Source: an uncultured Bdellovibrionales bacterium (lineage in GTDB: Bacteria; Bdellovibrionota; Bdellovibrionia; Bdellovibrionales; UBA1609). From it: a stretch of DNA of 57,132 bases. Positions 43,760-57,132 of the stretch are shown piece after piece (within the stretch, counting starts at the first letter, position 1; every line of letters starts with the position of its first letter). Location of the stretch: positions 1 through 57,132 of the forward strand of contig CALLBC010000079.1 of assembly GCA_938001965.1 (NCBI GenBank), given 5' to 3'. The translations under genes and the position numbers were made by a program. The notes under the pieces are model-generated. The model was not told the DNA's origin. It made no database searches and saw nothing but the letters and a program-made list of their open reading frames with translations.

Positions 43760-43959
43760 ATTAATGTTCTCCTTAAAGAGGTTTAATTTTACAATAATCT
43801 ATTAAGCAAATTCCTCACCAATATTTCATTCATTATAATCTAATAATTACAGTTACTTGGCTTATGCCTATTTTATCAACATTTACCCTTTGACGTAAAT
43901 TGTTAGTCAATACTGACGAACATTTGTCGATTAACGGCTTTCATAGTAGTTTTGTTTAC

Positions 43960-44511
43960 ATGGATATAAATAGTGAACAAGTCGAAGTTTTGGTAAAACA
44001 ATGCCAGGACGAATCTCCCTTTGGAACTAAAGCTTTCAAAGAGTTGGTTGTGTTATTTCAACCTTCTGTTCACCGGTTTTGCTATAATTATATTAAAAAT
44101 GATAATGATGCTGAAGAACTCACGCAATCTATCTTCTTAAAAGTTTATCATAATATAAAGAACTTTAAATTTGATTCTAAGTTTAAAACTTGGCTTTACC
44201 GAATAGCCATGAATCAATGTGCAGACTTATACAATAGAAAAAAAAAACAAAATAAACTTAAGCAAGAAATGATGGAGTACAGAAACGACGTTGCCCCTAA
44301 GGAAACTCATGCTGAGAAGCTAAGCCTACAAGATGATATTGGCTCTTACTTACACAAAATGCCTGACTCTGAGCGTGAGATCTTAATATTAAGGTTTTAT
44401 GAAGACTTAAAAGTGAAAGAGATTTCTGAAACACTTGGCATTAGTTTAAGTGCTGCCAAGATGAGGCTCTCAAGAGCCATTGAACATTTTAAAATTCTAT
44501 ATGACCCCTGA
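43960..44511 (+). CDS. ECF-type RNA polymerase sigma factor
   Basis: 183 residues from the ATG at 43960; a TTG at 43900 is less likely. Region 2 is clear (RFCYNYIKNDNDAEELTQSIFLKVYHNIKNF, KFKTWLYRIAMNQCADLYNRKKK) and region 4 follows (LPDSEREILILRFYEDL-like, KVKEISETLGISLSAAKMRLSRAIEH). No anti-sigma gene of a known type follows; the next gene is a small soluble protein, then an MscS channel. Confidence 0.9.
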   Translation: MDINSEQVEVLVKQCQDESPFGTKAFKELVVLFQPSVHRFCYNYIKNDNDAEELTQSIFLKVYHNIKNFKFDSKFKTWLYRIAMNQCADLYNRKKKQNKLKQEMMEYRNDVAPKETHAEKLSLQDDIGSYLHKMPDSEREILILRFYEDLKVKEISETLGISLSAAKMRLSRAIEHFKILYDP

Positions 44512-44565
44512 AGCTCAAAAAAATGAATTAATAACTAATAAACTAATTTAACGTAAAGGTTTAAG

Positions 44566-44847
44566 ATGAGTACAGACGACCCCAAAAAGCCCCTTTCAGA
44601 CGAAGAGCTAGAAGCGCTGTTTGAAAAGCATAGCAAAAAAAATGAAGCTGATATTAGCGGTAGTGATCTATCAGATAAAATTGTAGACCGCGCTAGACGC
44701 CAGTCTTCTAGTAAAAATGTGGCTGAATTCGCTTTTGTGAAGTTCTGGACAGGTGTGTTAGAGTTTGCCGCACTTTTTGGTACTTTTCTTAAACAAAAAA
44801 GTGTAGATAAAGACAATAGTAACGATGATGAATCTAATAGGAGTTAA
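44566..44847 (+). CDS. Small charged protein between ECF sigma factor and MscS
   Basis: 93 residues, rich in Asp, Glu, Lys and Ser. It has no signal peptide; a central stretch (VAEFAFVKFWTGVLEFAALFGTFL) is amphipathic or membrane-associating. It ends 3 bp before the MscS gene. It might modulate the sigma factor or the channel; no homology supports this. Confidence 0.6.
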   Translation: MSTDDPKKPLSDEELEALFEKHSKKNEADISGSDLSDKIVDRARRQSSSKNVAEFAFVKFWTGVLEFAALFGTFLKQKSVDKDNSNDDESNRS

Positions 44848-44850
44848 ATA

Positions 44851-45681
44851 ATGGAATCAAGTAGCTTTCAAGAAACACTTATGACTTCACTCAACTCAAT
44901 GTGGGTTGGTACTGTACAATTTATTCCTAAGCTCTTAGGAGCAATCATTTTATTCATTATTTTTTACATCATAGCAAGCACTGTTCGAAAAGTAGTTTCA
45001 ACAGCTCTTGAGAAAATTGGCGTTAATCAGCTTTTTGATAAACTAGGACTATCTAAAAGCTTATTTTCAGCAGGAATTAAATCCCCTCCATCGACCCTAT
45101 TTGCTAAGATTTTCTTTTATTTAATAATGCTTGCAGCTCTTACAGTTTGTGCTGATGTTTTACAACTAAGTAAGGTGACCGCTGCCATCTCCAGCTTTAT
45201 TAACTATATACCTAATATATTTGGCGCAGCCTTTATCCTATTCCTCGCTCAAATGGCAGGTATGTTTATTCGCGAAGCTTTAGAGGCAACATCTGAGCAC
45301 TTAAACTTTGACTACGGAAAGGTCATTGGTAATGCTCTTTACGCTTTAATCTTTATTATTGGTATTGTTTTAGCTTTTGGACAACTTCAAATTGAAACAG
45401 AGCTTCTAAGTAATGTTATTCAAATTTTATTACTTGCTGCCGGTGCGTCCATAGGGATTTCTCTTGGTCTTGGTACAAAGACTATCTCTAACAAGATTAT
45501 TTCTGGTGTTTACGTTAGAGAAGACTTTAGAGATGGTGATACTATTCGATTTAATGATATTGAAGGTGAAGTACTTTCAGTGGGATCTATTACAACTAAA
45601 GTTAAAAAAACAAGTGGTGAGATCGTATCCATTCCAAACAACTTACTATTAGAAAGCGTTGTTGTTTGCAAAAGATCATAA
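44851..45681 (+). CDS. MscS-family mechanosensitive channel
   Basis: 276 residues with a TM-helix repeat region, several membrane segments and an MscS core: LLLAAGASIGISLGLGTKTISNKIISGVYV is the pore helix followed by the beta domain (EDFRDGDTIRFNDIEGEVLSVGSITTKVKKTSGEIVSIPNN). It lacks the long C-terminal cytoplasmic cage, as in the small TM-helix MscS group. It should release solutes or ions under membrane tension. Confidence 0.85.
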   Translation: MESSSFQETLMTSLNSMWVGTVQFIPKLLGAIILFIIFYIIASTVRKVVSTALEKIGVNQLFDKLGLSKSLFSAGIKSPPSTLFAKIFFYLIMLAALTVCADVLQLSKVTAAISSFINYIPNIFGAAFILFLAQMAGMFIREALEATSEHLNFDYGKVIGNALYALIFIIGIVLAFGQLQIETELLSNVIQILLLAAGASIGISLGLGTKTISNKIISGVYVREDFRDGDTIRFNDIEGEVLSVGSITTKVKKTSGEIVSIPNNLLLESVVVCKRS

Positions 45682-48669: not shown

Positions 48670-49953
48670 TTATTTTACTTGTTTTAAGTTCGACCACCCA
48701 CTCACATATCTTGGAGATAAATGATTACGATTCATGGCCCAAGCCTTATTACCCGCCCCACAGGCCGCAACTCTAAGGGTGCCCTTGCCCTCAATGCTAT
48801 TTATCCGGTCCATCACCTGCATTAGCTTTAAGGCCTTTTCATCATCATAGTTTTCAAAGAGGCTCATCTGCTTTTTACTCTCTTGCTGTAAACTATTTAA
48901 ATAGACACCTGCTTTTTTATACTTATAACCTTTTTTATATATCCTATCTAATATTAGATTTGCACAGCTTATGGCCTTACGACTATCAGATGTGGGAGAT
49001 AGCAACTTAATATAATTGGTAGCCTTATAAGTTTTGTTCCGATGATGGTGCGAGGTACGAATAAAGACACCTATTTCTCCACAGGTGGATTTTTGTTTAC
49101 GTAAACTCTCAAAAGCTGAGCTTGTATAGTTTGCCACTGCTTTTTTCAAGTCTTCTAGCTTGTAAATTGGGGTTCCAAAGCTTCGACTGCACATTATACT
49201 TTTTTTAGGCTTAGTTAACTCTTCTAAACTAAAGCGATCGTACCCCTGAAGCTCTTCTTTAATTTGCAACCCAACTTTTGTGAACATTTTTTTTATATAT
49301 AAATCATTTTTATAATCACGAAAATCTTTAGCTGTTCTCAATCCCATTAACTGCAACTTAACCTCTAAGGCTCGGCCAATCCCCCAGACCTTACCAATAG
49401 GTGTTTTGCTTAAAGCAATATCTTGCCGAGACTGGTCTAATAAAACAACTACCCCTTCTGCCTTTTTAGACTTTTTAGCAATATGGTTAGCGAGCTTAGC
49501 TAAAGTTTTAGAGCTCGACACCCCTATACTTACTGGTATGCCAGTGTTCCTCTCCACTATTTTTTTTATCATACGGGCGTATTCATTTAAATTCTTAAAG
49601 CCCGTTAAATCTAAGAAAGCTTCATCAATAGAGTAAACTTCCATGCGTGGAGAAAATTGAGAAAGTGTTTGCATAACCCTATCTGATAAATTGCTATACA
49701 AAGAAAAATTTGATGAAAACACAGATACATTATTTTTCATACAAACATCTTTTACTTTAAAATAAGGAGTACCCATTGGAACGCCTAAAACCTTCAGCTC
49801 TTTACTCAAAGATACAAAGCAACCGTCATTATTTGATAACACACCAACAGGAGCATTATTTAACTCTGGCCTAAACAACCTCTCACAACTACAAAAAAAT
49901 GAGTTACAATCTACGAGGGCATAGATTTTATTTTTTTCATTTATTTTTAGCAT
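48670..49953 (-). CDS. umuC: Translesion DNA polymerase V catalytic subunit UmuC
   Basis: Y-family polymerase of 427 residues. ALVDCNSFFCSCERLF opens the palm (catalytic Asp), YSIDEAFLDL holds the second acidic pair, and VSIGVSSSKTLAKLANHIAKK and GIGRALEVKLQLMG follow in order. The C-terminal region carries a clamp-binding-like QMSLF. It copies past damage as an SOS function. It begins 5 bp after umuD. Confidence 0.96.
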   Translation of the reverse strand: MLKINEKNKIYALVDCNSFFCSCERLFRPELNNAPVGVLSNNDGCFVSLSKELKVLGVPMGTPYFKVKDVCMKNNVSVFSSNFSLYSNLSDRVMQTLSQFSPRMEVYSIDEAFLDLTGFKNLNEYARMIKKIVERNTGIPVSIGVSSSKTLAKLANHIAKKSKKAEGVVVLLDQSRQDIALSKTPIGKVWGIGRALEVKLQLMGLRTAKDFRDYKNDLYIKKMFTKVGLQIKEELQGYDRFSLEELTKPKKSIMCSRSFGTPIYKLEDLKKAVANYTSSAFESLRKQKSTCGEIGVFIRTSHHHRNKTYKATNYIKLLSPTSDSRKAISCANLILDRIYKKGYKYKKAGVYLNSLQQESKKQMSLFENYDDEKALKLMQVMDRINSIEGKGTLRVAACGAGNKAWAMNRNHLSPRYVSGWSNLKQVK

Positions 49954-49958
49954 CTTAT

Positions 49959-50504
49959 TTAAACTTCTCTAGCTATGGCAGTAACAACTCCAAACATTAT
50001 GAAGTTCATTTCTGTGGTGACCATTATAGGCCTATTCGTTTTATTATCTGATTTTAAAGTTATACAATCTGCTTTTTTATAATAGCGCTTACAAATCATG
50101 GCCCCATCTAAATGAGCCACCACAACTTTATTGTTTAAAACCTCTATGGAACGATCCACCACTAAAATATCACCTGGTAAAATAAGTGGCGCCATAGATT
50201 GGCCAGTGGCTTCAAAAAAAAATGTACTGGCTTGATTTTTTATAAAACGCTTATCCAGGGATTGATACTTTTCAATAAAGTCATCACCAATACCAAATAG
50301 CCCACAAGAAACTTGCCTACCCAAATATCTACAAACAGCCCTTCCTCGATCCTGCTCGCGAGATTGGAAAGTAGTATCCAACTGATTGTCTGCATTCCTA
50401 AAGCAGCTCACAGAGGCTCCTATAGGATTTGAAACAATCTTTTTTTGGGGACTATATATATGGTAGATTTTCGAGGATTTAGTGAGTTCTTGCTTTAAAA
50501 ACAT
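49959..50504 (-). CDS. umuD: UmuD-type S24 protease with extended N-terminus
   Basis: 181 residues, about 40 longer than E. coli UmuD. The self-cleavage site reads SCGLFGIGDD with the C67-G68 bond, the nucleophilic serine is S103 in TGQSM, and the general-base lysine is K139 in MICKRY. The extra N-terminal 45 residues (before the usual start) have a cysteine and no recognisable domain. It operates with umuC. I could not identify a convincing LexA box upstream. Confidence 0.9.
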   Translation of the reverse strand: MFLKQELTKSSKIYHIYSPQKKIVSNPIGASVSCFRNADNQLDTTFQSREQDRGRAVCRYLGRQVSCGLFGIGDDFIEKYQSLDKRFIKNQASTFFFEATGQSMAPLILPGDILVVDRSIEVLNNKVVVAHLDGAMICKRYYKKADCITLKSDNKTNRPIMVTTEMNFIMFGVVTAIAREV

Positions 50505-50695: not shown

Positions 50696-50771
50696 GGGGG
50701 ATTAGCTCAGTTGGGAGAGCACTTGATTTGCATTCAAGAGGTCGCAGGTTCGATCCCTGTATCCTCCACCA
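50696..50771 (+). tRNA. tRNA-Ala (anticodon UGC)
   Basis: 76 nt with encoded CCA. The acceptor stem GGGGGAT/ATCCTCC contains the G3-U70 wobble that marks alanine tRNAs. D arm AGCTCAGTTGGGAGAGC, anticodon stem CTTGA/TCAAG around TTTGCAT (anticodon TGC) and T loop GGTTCGATCC are canonical. It stands alone, not in an rRNA operon, and marks the left edge of the accessory region. Confidence 0.97.
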
Positions 50772-51079: not shown

Positions 51080-51712
51080 ATGAAGCAACAAATTGACCCA
51101 CAACTACAACAAAAAGAATATATAAGTGATGCAACAGCAATTAGTAAATTGCGAAAACTAAAGCAAATAACTCAAGCTGAAGCAGGACTTTTATTGAACT
51201 GCTCTATTTCAACAATTAAGCGCAGAGAACACAAAGATTGTAACTTAACAGTCGACGAAATAGATAATTTTTTAAAAGCATACGGTTACACCAGAAGTGA
51301 TTTAATTAATATAAAACTATCACGACCGGTAACCGTGCGAAATCATAAGTTACAAAAAACAAAAATTATCGAGCATAAATCACTAAGGCGAAGTTATAAA
51401 AAAATTATAACAAAAGAAGTTTTAGCGTTAATAGAGTTACGAAAACGTGCAGGAACTTCAATTAAAGACGCTTGTGAGAAATGTAACTATAACAGAAGTA
51501 CAATAGGAGCTATTGAAAATGGCCGGATAACATTAACTGAAAAACGAATAAAACACATAGTCGCCTCTTATGGTTTCAGGATGAAAGATTTTAATTCAAT
51601 TTTAAAAAGTGATTTAGACAGGCTTGGAATCATAGACGAATGTTTTCAAAAACTCAGAAGGCTAACAGATGAAAAGCTCTCAATTGTGGTCAATTTATTG
51701 AAAACAATATAA
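51080..51712 (+). CDS. DNA-binding protein with two HTH (XRE-like) domains
   Basis: 210 residues. Two related helix-turn-helix units are visible: residues 20-72 (SKLRKLKQITQAEAGLLLNC, STIKRRE) and 110-168 (ALIELRKRAGTSIKDACEKCNY, STIGAIENGR, then KRIKHIVASYGF). Each ends with the same DNFLKAYGYTRSDL / KHIVASYGFRMKDF type helix, which suggests internal duplication. A basic linker (residues 75-105) joins them. The unit likely binds a bipartite or repeated operator; the TTAGCA repeats just upstream are candidates. Confidence 0.65.
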   Translation: MKQQIDPQLQQKEYISDATAISKLRKLKQITQAEAGLLLNCSISTIKRREHKDCNLTVDEIDNFLKAYGYTRSDLINIKLSRPVTVRNHKLQKTKIIEHKSLRRSYKKIITKEVLALIELRKRAGTSIKDACEKCNYNRSTIGAIENGRITLTEKRIKHIVASYGFRMKDFNSILKSDLDRLGIIDECFQKLRRLTDEKLSIVVNLLKTI

Positions 51713-52304: not shown

Positions 52305-52557
52305 ATTTACATTGAAAGTAATGTTTGTTGTTTGCGAAATCGATTTTCTTAAGTCTGATCTTAAACAATAAACAAATATTTCCATCAATTTAATCTCTGG
52401 AAACAAAGCTTAGGTTTCCTAGTTTTTTATTATTTTCCCACTAAACATTTTGTCCATGTGGCATCCAAATACGAGCTCATTACTCCCTTCAACATTAAAT
52501 GTAATTTCGACCTCTTGGTTCAAGGGGAGTTTTTTGTTGATATTTAACTCTTCTAGA

Positions 52558-52566
52558 ATGACTTCT
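52558..52566. repeat. Target-site duplication, left copy
   Basis: ATGACTTCT, identical to 53946-53954. A 9-bp length fits the IS256 family (8-9 bp). Confidence 0.9.
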
Positions 52567-53945
52567 GAGATATTTTCAAAAGTTGTGGATGGGCTCACAT
52601 AGCAGCGGCCTCTCGATTTGATTCCTGAGGTGTTACCATAACCCCATTTCGATATTCAACCCCGGATAAAAGATTTTCAATTTCCTCAAAGCCACGGATC
52701 TTTCGCCACTTCTTTTCACACTCCTGCAGAAGCTTAAAAGCCATTGTTGTTGCGGTCTTAGTGCTCCCGGCACCTCGCGTGGTCTTTGTTCTCAGCTTCA
52801 CCGTTGCGAAGCTTGATTCGATCGGATTTGTTGTCCTAATACTTGTCCAGTGCCTTGCTGGGAAGTCAAAAAAAGTTGTCAACCGATCCCAGTCTTTCTC
52901 GAGGCACAGAAATGACTTTTCATATTTTTCATCAAACGTTTTTTTGAATCGCTCTTTAGCAAGATCTGCAGACTCTCTATCGGGCGCCTTCATCATTTCG
53001 TGAAGAAGTGCCTTTGCTTCTGGCTGCACACGCTTAGGAAGCTTGTTGAGGACGTTTGCGATCTTGTGAACCCAACATCTTTGCTCTTTGGTATCTTTAA
53101 ATTCTTCGATATCTCGAAGTGCTGCCCAGAACCCTAAAGCTCCGTCGCCCATCGCTAACATTGCCCCTGTAAAGCCGCGATCAACTAGCCCTCTCATTAA
53201 TGTCATCCAAGCTTCTTTCGACTCGCGGTACCCCTCTTGGACCGCCAGAAGCTCTTTGTCGCCGTCCTCCGTAACTCCCATCACGACAAGTACGCAGACT
53301 TTTTTATCATCACCGAGGCGAACTCGCACGTTCACGCCATCAGCCCAAATATAAACATACTTTTTGGTAATCTGTCTTCGCTTGAAAAACTCAAAATCTT
53401 TTTCCCATGTTTTTATGAGATTACTGACTGTTGCTGGTGACAAGCCCATTGTTCCTTCACCAAAAAAATCTTCGAGAGTGCTTCCCATTTTCCCCGTCGA
53501 GATTCCTCGAAGATATAGGACTGGGATGAGGCTTTCAATCCTTGGAGACTTTCTCAGGTACGGAGGTAGGATCTCTGACGTAAACTTCTTACCCGAACGT
53601 TTGTCGTTGATTCTTGGGGCTTCGATCTCAACGGCTCCAGAACCCAGAGTCACTGTTCTTCTTTTTGATTTCCCGTTTCTGACCACAAGCCGATTCCCGT
53701 TTTCATCAACTTCGTCCTTATGTTTGCTGATCACATCTTCGACTTCAGCTAACAGAGCCTCCATCAGCATCTTCTTCGCGCCCAGGCGAACGACCTCATC
53801 AAGATTGTATTTCAATGACTCATCGGTTAATAATTTCAACATAGCGGTGTTTCCTTTCACGCTCTTTCGAGCTGGTTCTTGGTCGAACTGAAAGGTTACG
53901 CCGCTATGCTTCTATTTTCAAATCCACAACTTTCTGAAATTTCTC
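52567..53945 (-). mobile_element. IS256-family insertion sequence, 1379 bp
   Basis: Terminal inverted repeats of 24 bp lie at 52567-52590 and 53922-53945 (4 mismatches; both begin GAGA and share AAAGTTGTGGAT). One full-length transposase lies inside. The element is visibly richer in G+C than its neighbours, and both ends and the duplication are intact, so the insertion is recent and was acquired from elsewhere. Confidence 0.95.
52595..53842 (-). CDS. IS256-family (Mutator-type) transposase
   Basis: 415 residues. The DDE triad is visible: D168 in IWADGV, D233 in AMGDGALGFW and E342 in NPIESSFATVK, with the CWVHK zinc-like pair (C256, H259) between the second Asp and the Glu. The N-terminal DNA-binding part reads YLRGISTGKM. 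The ATG at 53842 has AAAGGA about 10 bases upstream; a GTG at 53860 is the alternative. No frameshift, so it should be active. Confidence 0.95.
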   Translation of the reverse strand: MLKLLTDESLKYNLDEVVRLGAKKMLMEALLAEVEDVISKHKDEVDENGNRLVVRNGKSKRRTVTLGSGAVEIEAPRINDKRSGKKFTSEILPPYLRKSPRIESLIPVLYLRGISTGKMGSTLEDFFGEGTMGLSPATVSNLIKTWEKDFEFFKRRQITKKYVYIWADGVNVRVRLGDDKKVCVLVVMGVTEDGDKELLAVQEGYRESKEAWMTLMRGLVDRGFTGAMLAMGDGALGFWAALRDIEEFKDTKEQRCWVHKIANVLNKLPKRVQPEAKALLHEMMKAPDRESADLAKERFKKTFDEKYEKSFLCLEKDWDRLTTFFDFPARHWTSIRTTNPIESSFATVKLRTKTTRGAGSTKTATTMAFKLLQECEKKWRKIRGFEEIENLLSGVEYRNGVMVTPQESNREAAAM

Positions 53946-53954
53946 ATGACTTCT
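53946..53954. repeat. Target-site duplication, right copy
   Basis: ATGACTTCT, the partner of 52558-52566. Confidence 0.9.
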
Positions 53955-54170
53955 CGTGCGCATGTTTTATCTGTTGTTCTTGTAAAAAGAAGTTTTACGG
54001 TGTTTAAATTTGAAGGTATTTTAATTACAGCAGGAACATAGCCTTTTTCGTTTACTTCAATTTTGAAAGTATCAATATTTTTTGCAGGTGTAGTGGTATT
54101 TTTATCTAGACAACCGGTTAAAGAGATAACAACTGCTATTAGTATAGTCTTCATGATTAAAAAACTCCTT

Positions 54171-54545
54171 TTAAAGAAAATTAGGTAAAATAAATGCAAA
54201 AAATGCTCCGACCAACCATAAAAACACTGACAGGTAGCTAATTCTTATCGACCATTTTCGAGCGACAGTACAGGCCATAGCTTTTTTTGGGTCAATGGGG
54301 CACGGAGCGTTCCTTTGCGAGTACAATGATAGTGCACTAATCATTATTAACAATCCCGAAATTCCAAAGACCAATAGCTTATTTTGTGAAAGCCAAACAA
54401 CTTGCGGGAAAACACCTATAAAACCAGCAAAGGCAGCTCCCATTCCGATAGAGACTAGCAAGCTGGGTAGAGCACAACAAAGCACAGTCCCAAAGGAGGT
54501 AAATAGTGATAGATATGATGTTAATAAACTATTTACTTTAACCAT
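54171..54545 (-). CDS. MerT-like metal transport membrane protein
   Basis: 124 residues with three or four membrane helices. The first helix carries the vicinal cysteine motif TVLCCALPSLLVSIGMG, typical of MerT-type mercury importers and relatives. A cytoplasmic loop has two further cysteines (CPIDPKKAMACTVARKW). MerT moves Hg(II) from MerP to MerA; here the cargo may be another thiophilic metal, and no merA is visible. It begins on the last base of the HMA gene's stop (TAATG) and lies 16 bp before the cupredoxin gene. Confidence 0.7.
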   Translation of the reverse strand: MVKVNSLLTSYLSLFTSFGTVLCCALPSLLVSIGMGAAFAGFIGVFPQVVWLSQNKLLVFGISGLLIMISALSLYSQRNAPCPIDPKKAMACTVARKWSIRISYLSVFLWLVGAFFAFILPNFL

Positions 54546-54868
54546 TATTTTACAACTTTGACGAAGGTCAACCCTAAAGAAGTAACTATAGGCTTTATCT
54601 TTTCAGTTGATAAGTCAGTTCCTTTTTTGAGGTTTAAAGTTATTAGCATCTTTTCCATATCTACATCAACACTATTGACAGAAGATATTTCTTTGAATTT
54701 TTTTTCAGCTTTACTTTGGCATAAAGGACAGGCCATTCCATGCACTTTAATTTTTTTTATATTTTTTACGCTTTCGATTTTCTTATCTGATGACATCGAT
54801 TTTATAGTTTCTCCATAGCTAATGCTGCTAAAAAATAGTGCCGATAATATAATAATTACTTTTTTCAC
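54545..54868 (-). CDS. Periplasmic heavy-metal-associated (HMA) protein, MerP-like
   Basis: 107 residues from a GTG start at 54868, with GGGG 6 bases upstream. The signal peptide (about 1-20, ISYGE) is followed by an HMA fold with KVHGMACPLCQSKAEKKF, so the metal site is M-x-C-x-x-C. After the first strand it follows the usual beta-alpha-beta-beta-alpha-beta order (VNSVDVDMEKMLITLNL, IKPIVTSLGLTFVKV). It should pass metal ions to the MerT-like protein, whose gene overlaps by one base. Confidence 0.8.
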   Translation of the reverse strand: MKKVIIILSALFFSSISYGETIKSMSSDKKIESVKNIKKIKVHGMACPLCQSKAEKKFKEISSVNSVDVDMEKMLITLNLKKGTDLSTEKIKPIVTSLGLTFVKVVK

Positions 54869-54887
54869 TTTTTCCCCTTTGATTAAG

Positions 54888-55526
54888 TTAATGTCTAACC
54901 ATAAAATTAAGTTGTGCCCCACCATCTAAATCGACACCTAAATCTATCAAAAAGTTTTTATAGAAAAGACGCACGGTAGGAATATATATTATATCTTTAA
55001 ATTCATCGCTAAAAACAGTTTTTAAAATAACCCATGAATTTAACTCGGTAAATTTGGCTAAATAGGGTGCGTAACCAATACGTAGCTCAAGTCTATTATT
55101 TATAAGGTCATTCGTATTAAAAAATCGCTGTTCTGTGTATTTTGCAAATGTGTATATTCTTCGTGTTTCAAAATCACCTTGAAGTCCTATTCGGTAAAGT
55201 AAATCTGTTACCTTGCTGTCATCAGGGTTAAACTTTGAGCCGTAGCCGGGGCCTGCAAGAAGGTAGAAGTTGCCTTGTGCGGCTGGTAGATTCCACCTTT
55301 TGGCTAAGAACCCAAGCTGCAACGAGGTCGACTCCCAAGACTTAGGACTCCTTTCTACGATGAGCCCAGTGCCGAGCCAATATTTAGGGGAGTAAACCAA
55401 TTCTAAGCTCTGAAATTTTTGATGACTTGTGCCCATAAGGTCAAATCCACCTTCGTAAGAGCTAGGGTGTGAGAAAGAAGCCAGAGGCAGCAGAAGACCA
55501 ATAAAAATCAAAAATAAGTGTTTCAT
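54888..55526 (-). CDS. Outer-membrane beta-barrel-like protein of the metal cluster
   Basis: 212 residues with a signal peptide (about 1-19, ASFS) and alternating strands with aromatic residues (SLELVYSPKYWLGTGLIVER, GNFYLLAGPGYGSKF, RIYTFAKYTEQRFF, NRLELRIGYAPYL, PTVRLFYKNFLIDLGV). The final residues QLNFMVRH resemble a barrel end. It is first in the minus-strand metal operon, 20 bp before the HMA gene. An upstream TTG at 55562 lies in the promoter region and is rejected. Confidence 0.6.
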   Translation of the reverse strand: MKHLFLIFIGLLLPLASFSHPSSYEGGFDLMGTSHQKFQSLELVYSPKYWLGTGLIVERSPKSWESTSLQLGFLAKRWNLPAAQGNFYLLAGPGYGSKFNPDDSKVTDLLYRIGLQGDFETRRIYTFAKYTEQRFFNTNDLINNRLELRIGYAPYLAKFTELNSWVILKTVFSDEFKDIIYIPTVRLFYKNFLIDLGVDLDGGAQLNFMVRH

Positions 55527-55529
55527 GAT

Positions 55530-55613
55530 AGTAATACGTGAAATAGGCCCAAACTGTGACAAAATATTTTTTTTTGCTTATAGTCACATTTTATGGAGCT
55601 AGAACGTATTACT
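55530..55613. promoter_or_regulatory. Mirrored bipartite promoter elements between divergent metal operons
   Basis: AGTAATACGT-N15-TGTGAC occurs at 55530-55560 on the plus strand and again at 55613-55583 on the minus strand, about one common centre (55571.5). The spacer sequences differ, but length and blocks match. This is what two promoters for the same ECF sigma factor would look like, with predicted starts near 55567 (plus) and 55576 (minus). Confidence 0.6.
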
Positions 55614-55628
55614 AATAAAGAGATATTG

Positions 55629-56153
55629 ATGAATAATTCTACTGATGAACAACTCGTGATCCAACTTATTAAAGGGCAAGCTAGCGCTTTTGAGTTACTC
55701 TATTTTAGGTATGAGAAAAAAATTATGGGCTATACGTATTCAAAAATAAAAAATCTAGAAGCTTCTGAGGAAGTTTTTCAGGGCATTTGGGAAAAGGTCT
55801 ATAAATCAATACATAAATTTGATTCGTCACTAAAATTCTCGTCTTGGCTTTTTACAATTTCATCAAACTCTATTAACGACTACTTTCGGAAGAATTCCAA
55901 AGTAATGTTAGAGTTGGACAAGGTACCATATGAAGCTCACAAGGATACAAACATAGATCCTCTTGAGGCAATAGACATAAATGATCTAAAATCACCGTAT
56001 AAAGAGGTTTTTAATTATAAATATATTGAAGGGCTTACAACAAAAGAGATTTCAGTAAAAATGTCACTTTCAGATTCCAACGTCAGAAAAATCTTATCTA
56101 GGGGAAGAAATATATTAAGAAGCAAGTTAGAGGAGGACAAGAATGAGCTTTGA
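55629..56153 (+). CDS. ECF-type sigma factor of the metal cluster
   Basis: 174 residues from the ATG at 55629 (AAAGAGAT upstream); an ATG at 55593 would add 12 residues without a ribosome site. Region 2 reads LYFRYEKKIMGYTYSKIKNLEASEEVFQGIWEKVY, then SSLKFSSWLFTISSNSINDYFRK; region 4 reads PYKEVFNYKYIEGLTTKEISVKMSLSDSNVRKILSRGRN. Its stop overlaps the next gene by 11 bp. It probably activates its own operon and the divergent metal genes. Confidence 0.9.
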   Translation: MNNSTDEQLVIQLIKGQASAFELLYFRYEKKIMGYTYSKIKNLEASEEVFQGIWEKVYKSIHKFDSSLKFSSWLFTISSNSINDYFRKNSKVMLELDKVPYEAHKDTNIDPLEAIDINDLKSPYKEVFNYKYIEGLTTKEISVKMSLSDSNVRKILSRGRNILRSKLEEDKNEL

Positions 56154-56649
56154 TACTATTGAGCCTAAAGAGGTTCCAGCTAAATTGTCTGACAAGATTT
56201 TAAATAACTCAAGCCGACATATTGAGCCTCCAATAACTAAAGTTTTAATAAAGTATTTGGGTGTTTTTACTGTTTCTATCTTCTTTAGTCTGATTGTATG
56301 TCCGCAAAATGGAGTGGGGTTATTAAGAACTAACTTTCCTATATACCACTCATTTTTTCATAATAATCTTTTACTCTGTGGGTTGTATTGTGGGTTTATG
56401 TTTTTCATCACGACTCATTTAGTTTCATTTTATCTTCTTAATCATTTTGAGAGAATAGTTATATTTAAGAAAATGGGCTACCTTCCAGCAGTCTGTTTAT
56501 CTACATTCTTTGCTTTTTCAATGACACCGTTTTTTACAATAGTTGACTTTTCTTTGTTGTATACGATTGGCTGGCTTGGAATTGCTGTTTTATTAATGAT
56601 ATTTCATAAGAAAATGTTTATGGCAAAAGTAAACAATTATTCTTTTTAG
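56143..56649 (+). CDS. Membrane protein, anti-sigma factor candidate
   Basis: 168 residues. A cytoplasmic N-terminus of about 35 residues (DTIEPKEVPAKLSDKILNNSSRH) precedes four membrane helices. Overlap with the sigma factor gene and this topology fit a membrane anti-sigma factor, in which the first part would bind the sigma factor. Cysteines lie in the membrane region (VCPQNG, LLCGLYCGF), which might sense metal. No standard anti-sigma motif (HxxxCxxC) is present. Confidence 0.5.
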   Translation: MSFDTIEPKEVPAKLSDKILNNSSRHIEPPITKVLIKYLGVFTVSIFFSLIVCPQNGVGLLRTNFPIYHSFFHNNLLLCGLYCGFMFFITTHLVSFYLLNHFERIVIFKKMGYLPAVCLSTFFAFSMTPFFTIVDFSLLYTIGWLGIAVLLMIFHKKMFMAKVNNYSF

Positions 56650-56659
56650 GATATAAATA

Positions 56660-57132
56660 ATGATCACAAACAATATGAGTGTTAATGGAATTACTTGCGG
56701 AAAGTGTGTAAAACTTATTGAAAATACTTTGATGTCGGCAAATCTTTCTTTAAATGATATTGAAATAAATAAGGATACTGGGTTTATTCAATTTAGTAGT
56801 TTGAAAACAGTTAGCCCTCAGTTGCTAAATTCATTATTTAAAGAAAAAGGAATATCAAAATATTCATTTAGCCATACACCCAAAAAAAATAATAAAAATA
56901 TATTTACATTTATTAAAAGACTATATCCTTTATTTTTAATATTTGGCTATTTACTGCTGACAGTCATAATTATTTCATTTATCAGCAAGGACTTTTCGAC
57001 CTTAACTCTCATGTCTAACTATATGGGTGGTTTCTTTATTGTGTTTTCTTTTTTTAAATTTTTAAATTTACCAGGCTTTGTTGATGCATTTCAAACTTAT
57101 GATCCGATAGCAAAGAATTGGAAAAATTATGG
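56660..57132 (+). CDS. HMA domain fused to MauE/DoxX-like membrane domain, cut by window edge
   Basis: The ATG at 56660 opens 157 codons to the edge. The N-terminal HMA domain carries GITCGKCVKLIENTL with the CxxC metal site. From about residue 90 membrane helices follow, and MGGFFIVFSFFKFLNLPGFVDAFQTYDPIAKNW matches MauE/DoxX-like redox-associated proteins that often accompany metal-transport genes. It lies 10 bp after the anti-sigma candidate in the same operon. Confidence 0.7.
   Translation, partial: MITNNMSVNGITCGKCVKLIENTLMSANLSLNDIEINKDTGFIQFSSLKTVSPQLLNSLFKEKGISKYSFSHTPKKNNKNIFTFIKRLYPLFLIFGYLLLTVIIISFISKDFSTLTLMSNYMGGFFIVFSFFKFLNLPGFVDAFQTYDPIAKNWKNY

Follow-up and report, generated by a model that had tools for sequence, protein, structure and literature searches.

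A probable copper-type ECF sigma/anti-sigma divergon with predicted mirror-image promoters in Bdellovibrionota

Results

The window analyzed here is the whole of contig C79 (57,132 nucleotides) of an uncultured Bdellovibrionales bacterium, taken from a 3.5-Mb genome in 266 contigs whose nearest relatives are Bdellovibrionales metagenome-assembled genomes. Close to its right-hand end, which is also the contig end (57132), lies a cluster of metal-related genes in which an extracytoplasmic function (ECF) sigma factor probably acts together with an overlapping membrane protein. On the plus strand, the ECF sigma gene (55629 to 56153) is followed by the overlapping membrane-protein gene (56143 to 56649) and a putative HMA-MauE fusion gene (56660 to 57132). 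The minus strand encodes an outer-membrane beta-barrel (54888 to 55526), an exported CxxC HMA-domain protein (54545 to 54868), a MerT-like inner-membrane protein (54171 to 54545), and a cupredoxin-like lipoprotein. A sequence-only reading made earlier had placed these genes broadly correctly and needed two corrections: the cupredoxin gene is broken, and the starts of the sigma and barrel genes were misassigned. The sigma start moves from 55593 to 55629, the position equivalent to the ATG at which its homologues begin, since the ATG at 55593 sits between the -35 and -10 elements of a predicted promoter; the barrel starts at 55526, inside a stretch that had been called coding. The same reading missed two back-to-back promoters, and the cluster is a true divergon. 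A second divergon was found in the same genome on contig C221, with sigma, membrane-protein, barrel, HMA, and MerT-like genes and an intact cupredoxin gene; a kinase-like gene takes the next position there instead of HMA-MauE, and the membrane proteins of the two copies are 74% identical.

The assignment of the sigma gene to the ECF class was borne out by profile matches (PF04542, E = 6e-12; PF08281, E = 5e-10; TIGR02937, above cut-off). The 174-amino-acid product has sigma2 and sigma4 regions without sigma3, as expected of an ECF (sigma-70 group 4) factor; it contains no cysteine and ends after region 4, with no C-terminal extension. The overlap with the membrane-protein gene that had been reported is real and amounts to 11 bases (start at 56143, sigma stop at 56153).

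The sigma and barrel genes are separated by a region that contains one bipartite element twice, in mirror image, and we predict these two sites to be the ECF promoters of the sigma operon (AGTCACA-N16-CGTATTA, 55582 to 55611, plus strand) and of the divergent operon (TGTCACA-N16-CGTATTA, 55532 to 55561, minus strand); as predicted sites, they give the sigma gene the autoregulatory bipartite promoter that is typical of ECF factors. When zero or one mismatch was allowed, the only matches in the whole genome were this pair and the equivalent pair on C221. With two mismatches there were 21 matches, a number that includes the four true sites, against 17 for the reversed control; because the motif at this stringency is no commoner than its control, we claim no other regulon targets in this genome. 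A survey of 49 loci located the element upstream of the sigma gene at 31 and on the other strand at 38, whereas dinucleotide shuffles predict it in 0.08 of 49 loci. Other divergent regions from these loci provided a matched control: the bipartite promoter occurs in 3 of 79 of them, against 65 of the 78 divergent regions that contain the sigma gene. The distance from TGTCAC to CGT is 17 in 78 of 83 instances. When the pattern was tightened, 119 genomes yielded 17 matches (reversed pattern, 0), and all 17 adjoin a sigma/membrane-protein pair or directly precede a barrel operon. Predicted sites distributed in this way are as expected of an ECF factor that controls its own gene and a small set of nearby targets.

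The membrane protein (56143 to 56649, plus strand) is our candidate for the anti-sigma factor of the adjoining sigma, a role suggested by gene order, by the overlap, and by the precedent of NrsF. AlphaFold2 modeled it with moderate confidence (mean predicted local distance difference test [pLDDT] score of 75) as an N-terminal helix (residues 13 to 27) and four membrane helices, with a cytoplasmic N-terminal part of about 30 residues. Cys53, Gln55, Cys79, and Cys83 are unchanged in 102 of 102 distinct membrane-protein sequences, which share no further common cysteine; an N terminus on the inside would place these cysteines close to the outer face of helices 1 and 2. The earlier suggestion that this protein with its cysteines may be the metal sensor is strengthened by the invariance of three of them. 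The distances among sigma factors and among membrane proteins co-vary (r = 0.84 over 92 pairs), a correlation that partly reflects shared ancestry. No family was matched in a Pfam scan of 25 members, no sequence match was found in the PDB, and a fold search with the model, whose confidence is moderate, returned no usable relative. Membership in the NrsF family (PF06532) was rejected, with 0 of 25 members matching in the Pfam scan and an hhalign probability of 0.4%.

A profile search found the membrane protein in 195 of 369 Bdellovibrionota genomes and 98 of 182 genera, and a sigma gene adjoins it at 95 of 104 distinct loci. Within 6 kb, any copper-type gene was present at 83 of these 104 loci: resistance-nodulation-division (RND) or outer membrane efflux protein (OEP) genes at 52, barrel plus HMA/MerT genes at 22 (either of the two at 73), and CopA at 20. 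Naming of the neighboring families placed the RND pumps in the CusA/CzcA type and the ATPases in the copper type (CopA, TIGR01511), both above cut-off; the adaptors are CusB-like with a heavy-metal-binding domain (HMBD), and multicopper oxidases and CsoR-type repressors also occur. The sequence-only reading had been staked on recurrence of the gene set in other genomes, and the sigma/membrane-protein pair does recur with metal genes across the phylum; since this linkage is repeated at many loci, the cluster is more than a chance arrangement. A search of plasmids gave no match. Motif-bearing loci that lack efflux genes encode different small exported proteins. Two of these, at L087 (498 to 836) and L082 (561 to 764), are very rich in cysteine, unmatched in Pfam, and similar in appearance to periplasmic metallothioneins. 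Several loci have instead a protein of about 158 amino acids, also exported, behind the divergent promoter (L222, 7295 to 7768; L247, 2868 to 3344), for which no Pfam family scored above cut-off and which bears a weak hint of a small metal-binding protein.

The products of the divergent operon resemble parts of known metal systems. The outer-membrane protein (54888 to 55526, minus strand) has a signal peptide and, as had been supposed from its sequence, is a predicted barrel, modeled by AlphaFold2 with 12 strands (pLDDT, 91). It has no Pfam match; its best Foldseek matches are small porins, among them PcoB (7pge; template modeling score of about 0.43, E = 1.4e-3). The likeness to PcoB/CopB consists of the 12-strand prediction and this hit, and is weak, being no better than that to other small porins and without a sequence match. 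The exported HMA protein (minus strand, GMxCxxC motif, likely GTG start at 54868) confirmed the earlier description by matching PF00403 (E = 3.7e-8; 34.1 bits against a cut-off of 24.8, frame 54545 to 54925). The third protein (minus strand), which carries CCALP and CPIDP cysteine motifs in the alignment, was described earlier as MerT-like, and remote homology to MerT is upheld by hhalign against PF02411 members (95.5%, E = 1.3e-8); membership by the PF02411 profile was rejected (0 of 11 members match). Together with the CxxC carrier it recalls the MerT/MerP uptake pair (PF02411 and PF00403), in which an inner-membrane CC protein is paired with a periplasmic carrier, but it differs in scoring below PF02411, in the extra barrel, in its copper-type neighbors, and in having neither MerR nor MerA. 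On the plus strand, the gene proposed to encode an HMA-MauE/DoxX fusion is cut at 57132 and the HMA part of this truncated copy is below threshold, whereas complete relatives carry HMA together with a MauE domain (PF07291) that scores above cut-off, so that the MauE part of the claim stands on those relatives. We read the barrel, HMA, and MerT-like set as an envelope metal relay for which import, export, and buffering are all possible.

The barrel-HMA-MerT operon is also present in Pseudomonadota and other phyla, which allowed its regulators to be compared. Operon loci in a wider genome collection were gathered with the MerT-like protein as the query, the whole membrane-protein alignment having no conserved stretch usable for that search. 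Among 27 Bdellovibrionota operon loci, 10 have sigma and the membrane protein nearby, 3 have sigma alone, and 8 have a CsoR-type gene; the ECF pair is absent from all 44 operon loci sampled in other phyla, where MerR-type genes (6), CsoR-type genes (6), and CusF (5) are found. Judged by gene neighborhood, the ECF pair occupies the position held elsewhere by MerR and CsoR regulators, although Bdellovibrionota loci themselves do not all have it. The earlier idea of ECF in place of MerR-type control is borne out in this sense, without being universal in the phylum: sigma is present in 13 of 27 loci in the phylum and 0 of 44 outside it, against CsoR in 8 of the 27. In many lineages (L100, L101, L102, L107, L160, and L161), small Cys/His-rich exported proteins are encoded directly upstream of this operon; those tested (L160 and L161) have no Pfam match.

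The cupredoxin gene described as part of the cluster is not intact. An IS256-family element (52567 to 53945, minus strand; transposase at 52595 to 53860; PF00872 and NF033543) with imperfect terminal repeats splits it into a 5' part (53946 to 54154, minus strand) and a 3' part (52419 to 52566, minus strand), the latter outside the region first described. The insertion is flanked by a perfect 9-bp target duplication, ATGACTTCT (52558 to 52566 and 53946 to 53954), and the cupredoxin profile (PF13473) is matched in two halves, positions 5 to 55 and 57 to 103, on either side of it. When the flanks were joined, a 115-amino-acid frame was obtained that is 74% identical to the intact cupredoxin copy on C221. 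Cupredoxin is the last gene of the operon, and the insertion should therefore spare the upstream genes. A partial second IS256 copy on contig C54 is 87% identical over 789 bases.

Elsewhere in the window, a UmuC/UmuD-type translesion polymerase pair (48670 to 50504, minus strand) lies beside a tRNA-Ala gene (50696 to 50771), with an XRE-type regulator (51080 to 51712) in the same neighborhood; this region beside the metal cluster is possibly an insertion hot spot. A further ECF sigma gene, distinct from the first, occupies 43900 to 45681 together with the mechanosensitive-channel gene that comes after it.

Discussion

Taken together, these results point to a copper(I)-type metal-stress divergon under an ECF sigma factor and an anti-sigma factor, with cysteine sensing and paired promoters, and we consider this account of the locus probable. 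In the mechanism that we propose, the overlapping four-helix protein would hold the sigma factor at the inner membrane; excess thiophilic metal in the periplasm would be sensed at the Cys53/Gln55/Cys79/Cys83 cluster, and the sigma factor would then be released. Freed sigma would recognize both mirror-image promoters, that of its own gene and that of the divergent operon, and would induce itself, the anti-sigma factor, the HMA-MauE protein, and an envelope relay made up of the outer-membrane barrel, the periplasmic HMA carrier, the MerT-like inner-membrane protein, and, in intact copies, cupredoxin. A bolder version is that a periplasmic Cys-x-Gln ... Cys-x3-Cys site lets the four-helix family bind Cu(I) directly, and that this family is the main copper sensor-regulator of all Bdellovibrionota, in the place of CueR, CsoR, or CusRS; this we put forward tentatively, as somewhat less than an even prospect.

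The general principle of ECF and membrane anti-sigma control of copper genes is already known from SigF-NrsF and RpoQ-RsqA, and these precedents, together with CorE, mean that ECF control of copper genes is not in itself new. In Caulobacter crescentus, SigF is paired with the anti-sigma factor NrsF (PF06532, DUF1109); its regulon is induced by Cu, Cr, and Cd and includes a DoxX-family protein, and a sigF mutant is copper sensitive (PMC3511200, PMC8224329). The divergon described here similarly joins an ECF sigma to a multihelix membrane protein, in this case a proposed anti-sigma factor, with conserved cysteines, which face the periplasm in NrsF. NrsF, however, spans the membrane six times and conserves two cysteines (C131 and C181), against four predicted helices and three cysteines here, and the proposed regulon here comprises CusCBA or the barrel-HMA-MerT set rather than bufferin genes. 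The gigPABT-rpoQ-rsqA locus of Cupriavidus metallidurans has the same arrangement, an operon with a DoxX-like member divergent from ECF sigma and membrane anti-sigma genes (PMC10304878), but different effectors; gigPABT is copper induced, and RpoQ dependence of gig was not demonstrated (PMC10304878). CorE of Myxococcus xanthus is likewise a copper-dependent ECF sigma over copper genes, but its copper sensor is the cysteine-rich domain at its own C terminus, and it has no linked anti-sigma factor (PMC3107203); self-sensing of this kind was rejected here, as our sigma has no cysteine. The ECF41 promoter, TGTCACA-n16-CGTC, has the same -35 element and spacing (PMC3426412), whereas the -10 element here is CGTATTA or CGTAATA. 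ECF41 factors have a fused C-terminal regulatory domain and COE neighbors (PMC3426412); this sigma has no fused SnoaL-like domain and no COE gene among its neighbors, and it was not assigned to that group.

Several observations weigh against the copper divergon as proposed. One effector gene, that for cupredoxin, is broken in this genome, and the membrane protein matches no known anti-sigma domain or fold, its role being read from gene order and precedent. At several loci (L046, L234, and L245), the pair stands with neither metal genes nor the motif nearby. The same absence marks L236, and at these four loci, which come from a single genus, the membrane-protein gene (adjoined by sigma at three) lies beside a gene of about 690 amino acids, the size of an H+-pyrophosphatase; for comparison, the 688-amino-acid gene at L058 encodes an H+-pyrophosphatase. 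The pair may have changed targets at these four loci. Finally, L082 carries a zinc-type cation diffusion facilitator (CDF) transporter, and the metal may therefore vary between loci.

That transporter, along with the remote homology of the MerT-like protein to MerT, is what speaks for mercury, silver, cadmium, or zinc as the metal, with the MerT/MerP-like pair as an importer feeding detoxification; no MerA or MerB is found among the annotated neighbors, however, and CusA/CusB, CopA, CsoR-type, multicopper oxidase, CusF, and cupredoxin genes predominate, which makes another metal unlikely. It also seems improbable to us that the cysteines respond to oxidation or another thiol stress and not to direct metal binding, with metal acting only indirectly, given neighbors that are overwhelmingly metal-efflux and metal-carrier genes and not peroxidases or repair enzymes, even though the cysteines by themselves would fit metal binding and oxidation alike, repression is simply lost when NrsF cysteines are mutated (PMC3511200), and an HMA-MauE/DoxX type partner could be redox-linked. 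More doubtful still is a reading in which the membrane protein serves as an effector or transporter and sigma is controlled by other means. Its lack of a known anti-sigma domain or fold match would fit such a role, as would a cytoplasmic N-terminal part of only about 30 residues, but that of NrsF is likewise only 25 residues long (PMC3511200), and the protein keeps its place beside sigma at 95 of 104 loci while the effectors vary among barrel-HMA-MerT, CusCBA, and others.

As far as our searches of open papers reach, the novelty lies in the proposed anti-sigma family, with its cysteine site and its spread through the phylum, and in the exchange of regulators, although an ECF group number may already exist; nothing relevant on copper and ECF factors in Bdellovibrio was found among those papers. 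If the copper-type divergon is as we propose, its membrane protein would show that metal-sensing membrane anti-sigma factors can be built in a second way, structurally distinct from NrsF, and the operon would offer a clean case of regulator exchange, with one set of effectors under MerR, CsoR, or an ECF pair according to lineage. The invariant cysteines and the mirrored promoter make the divergon directly testable by reporter. It would also account for the way in which copper and related metals may be regulated in this phylum, to which the predatory Bdellovibrio group belongs.

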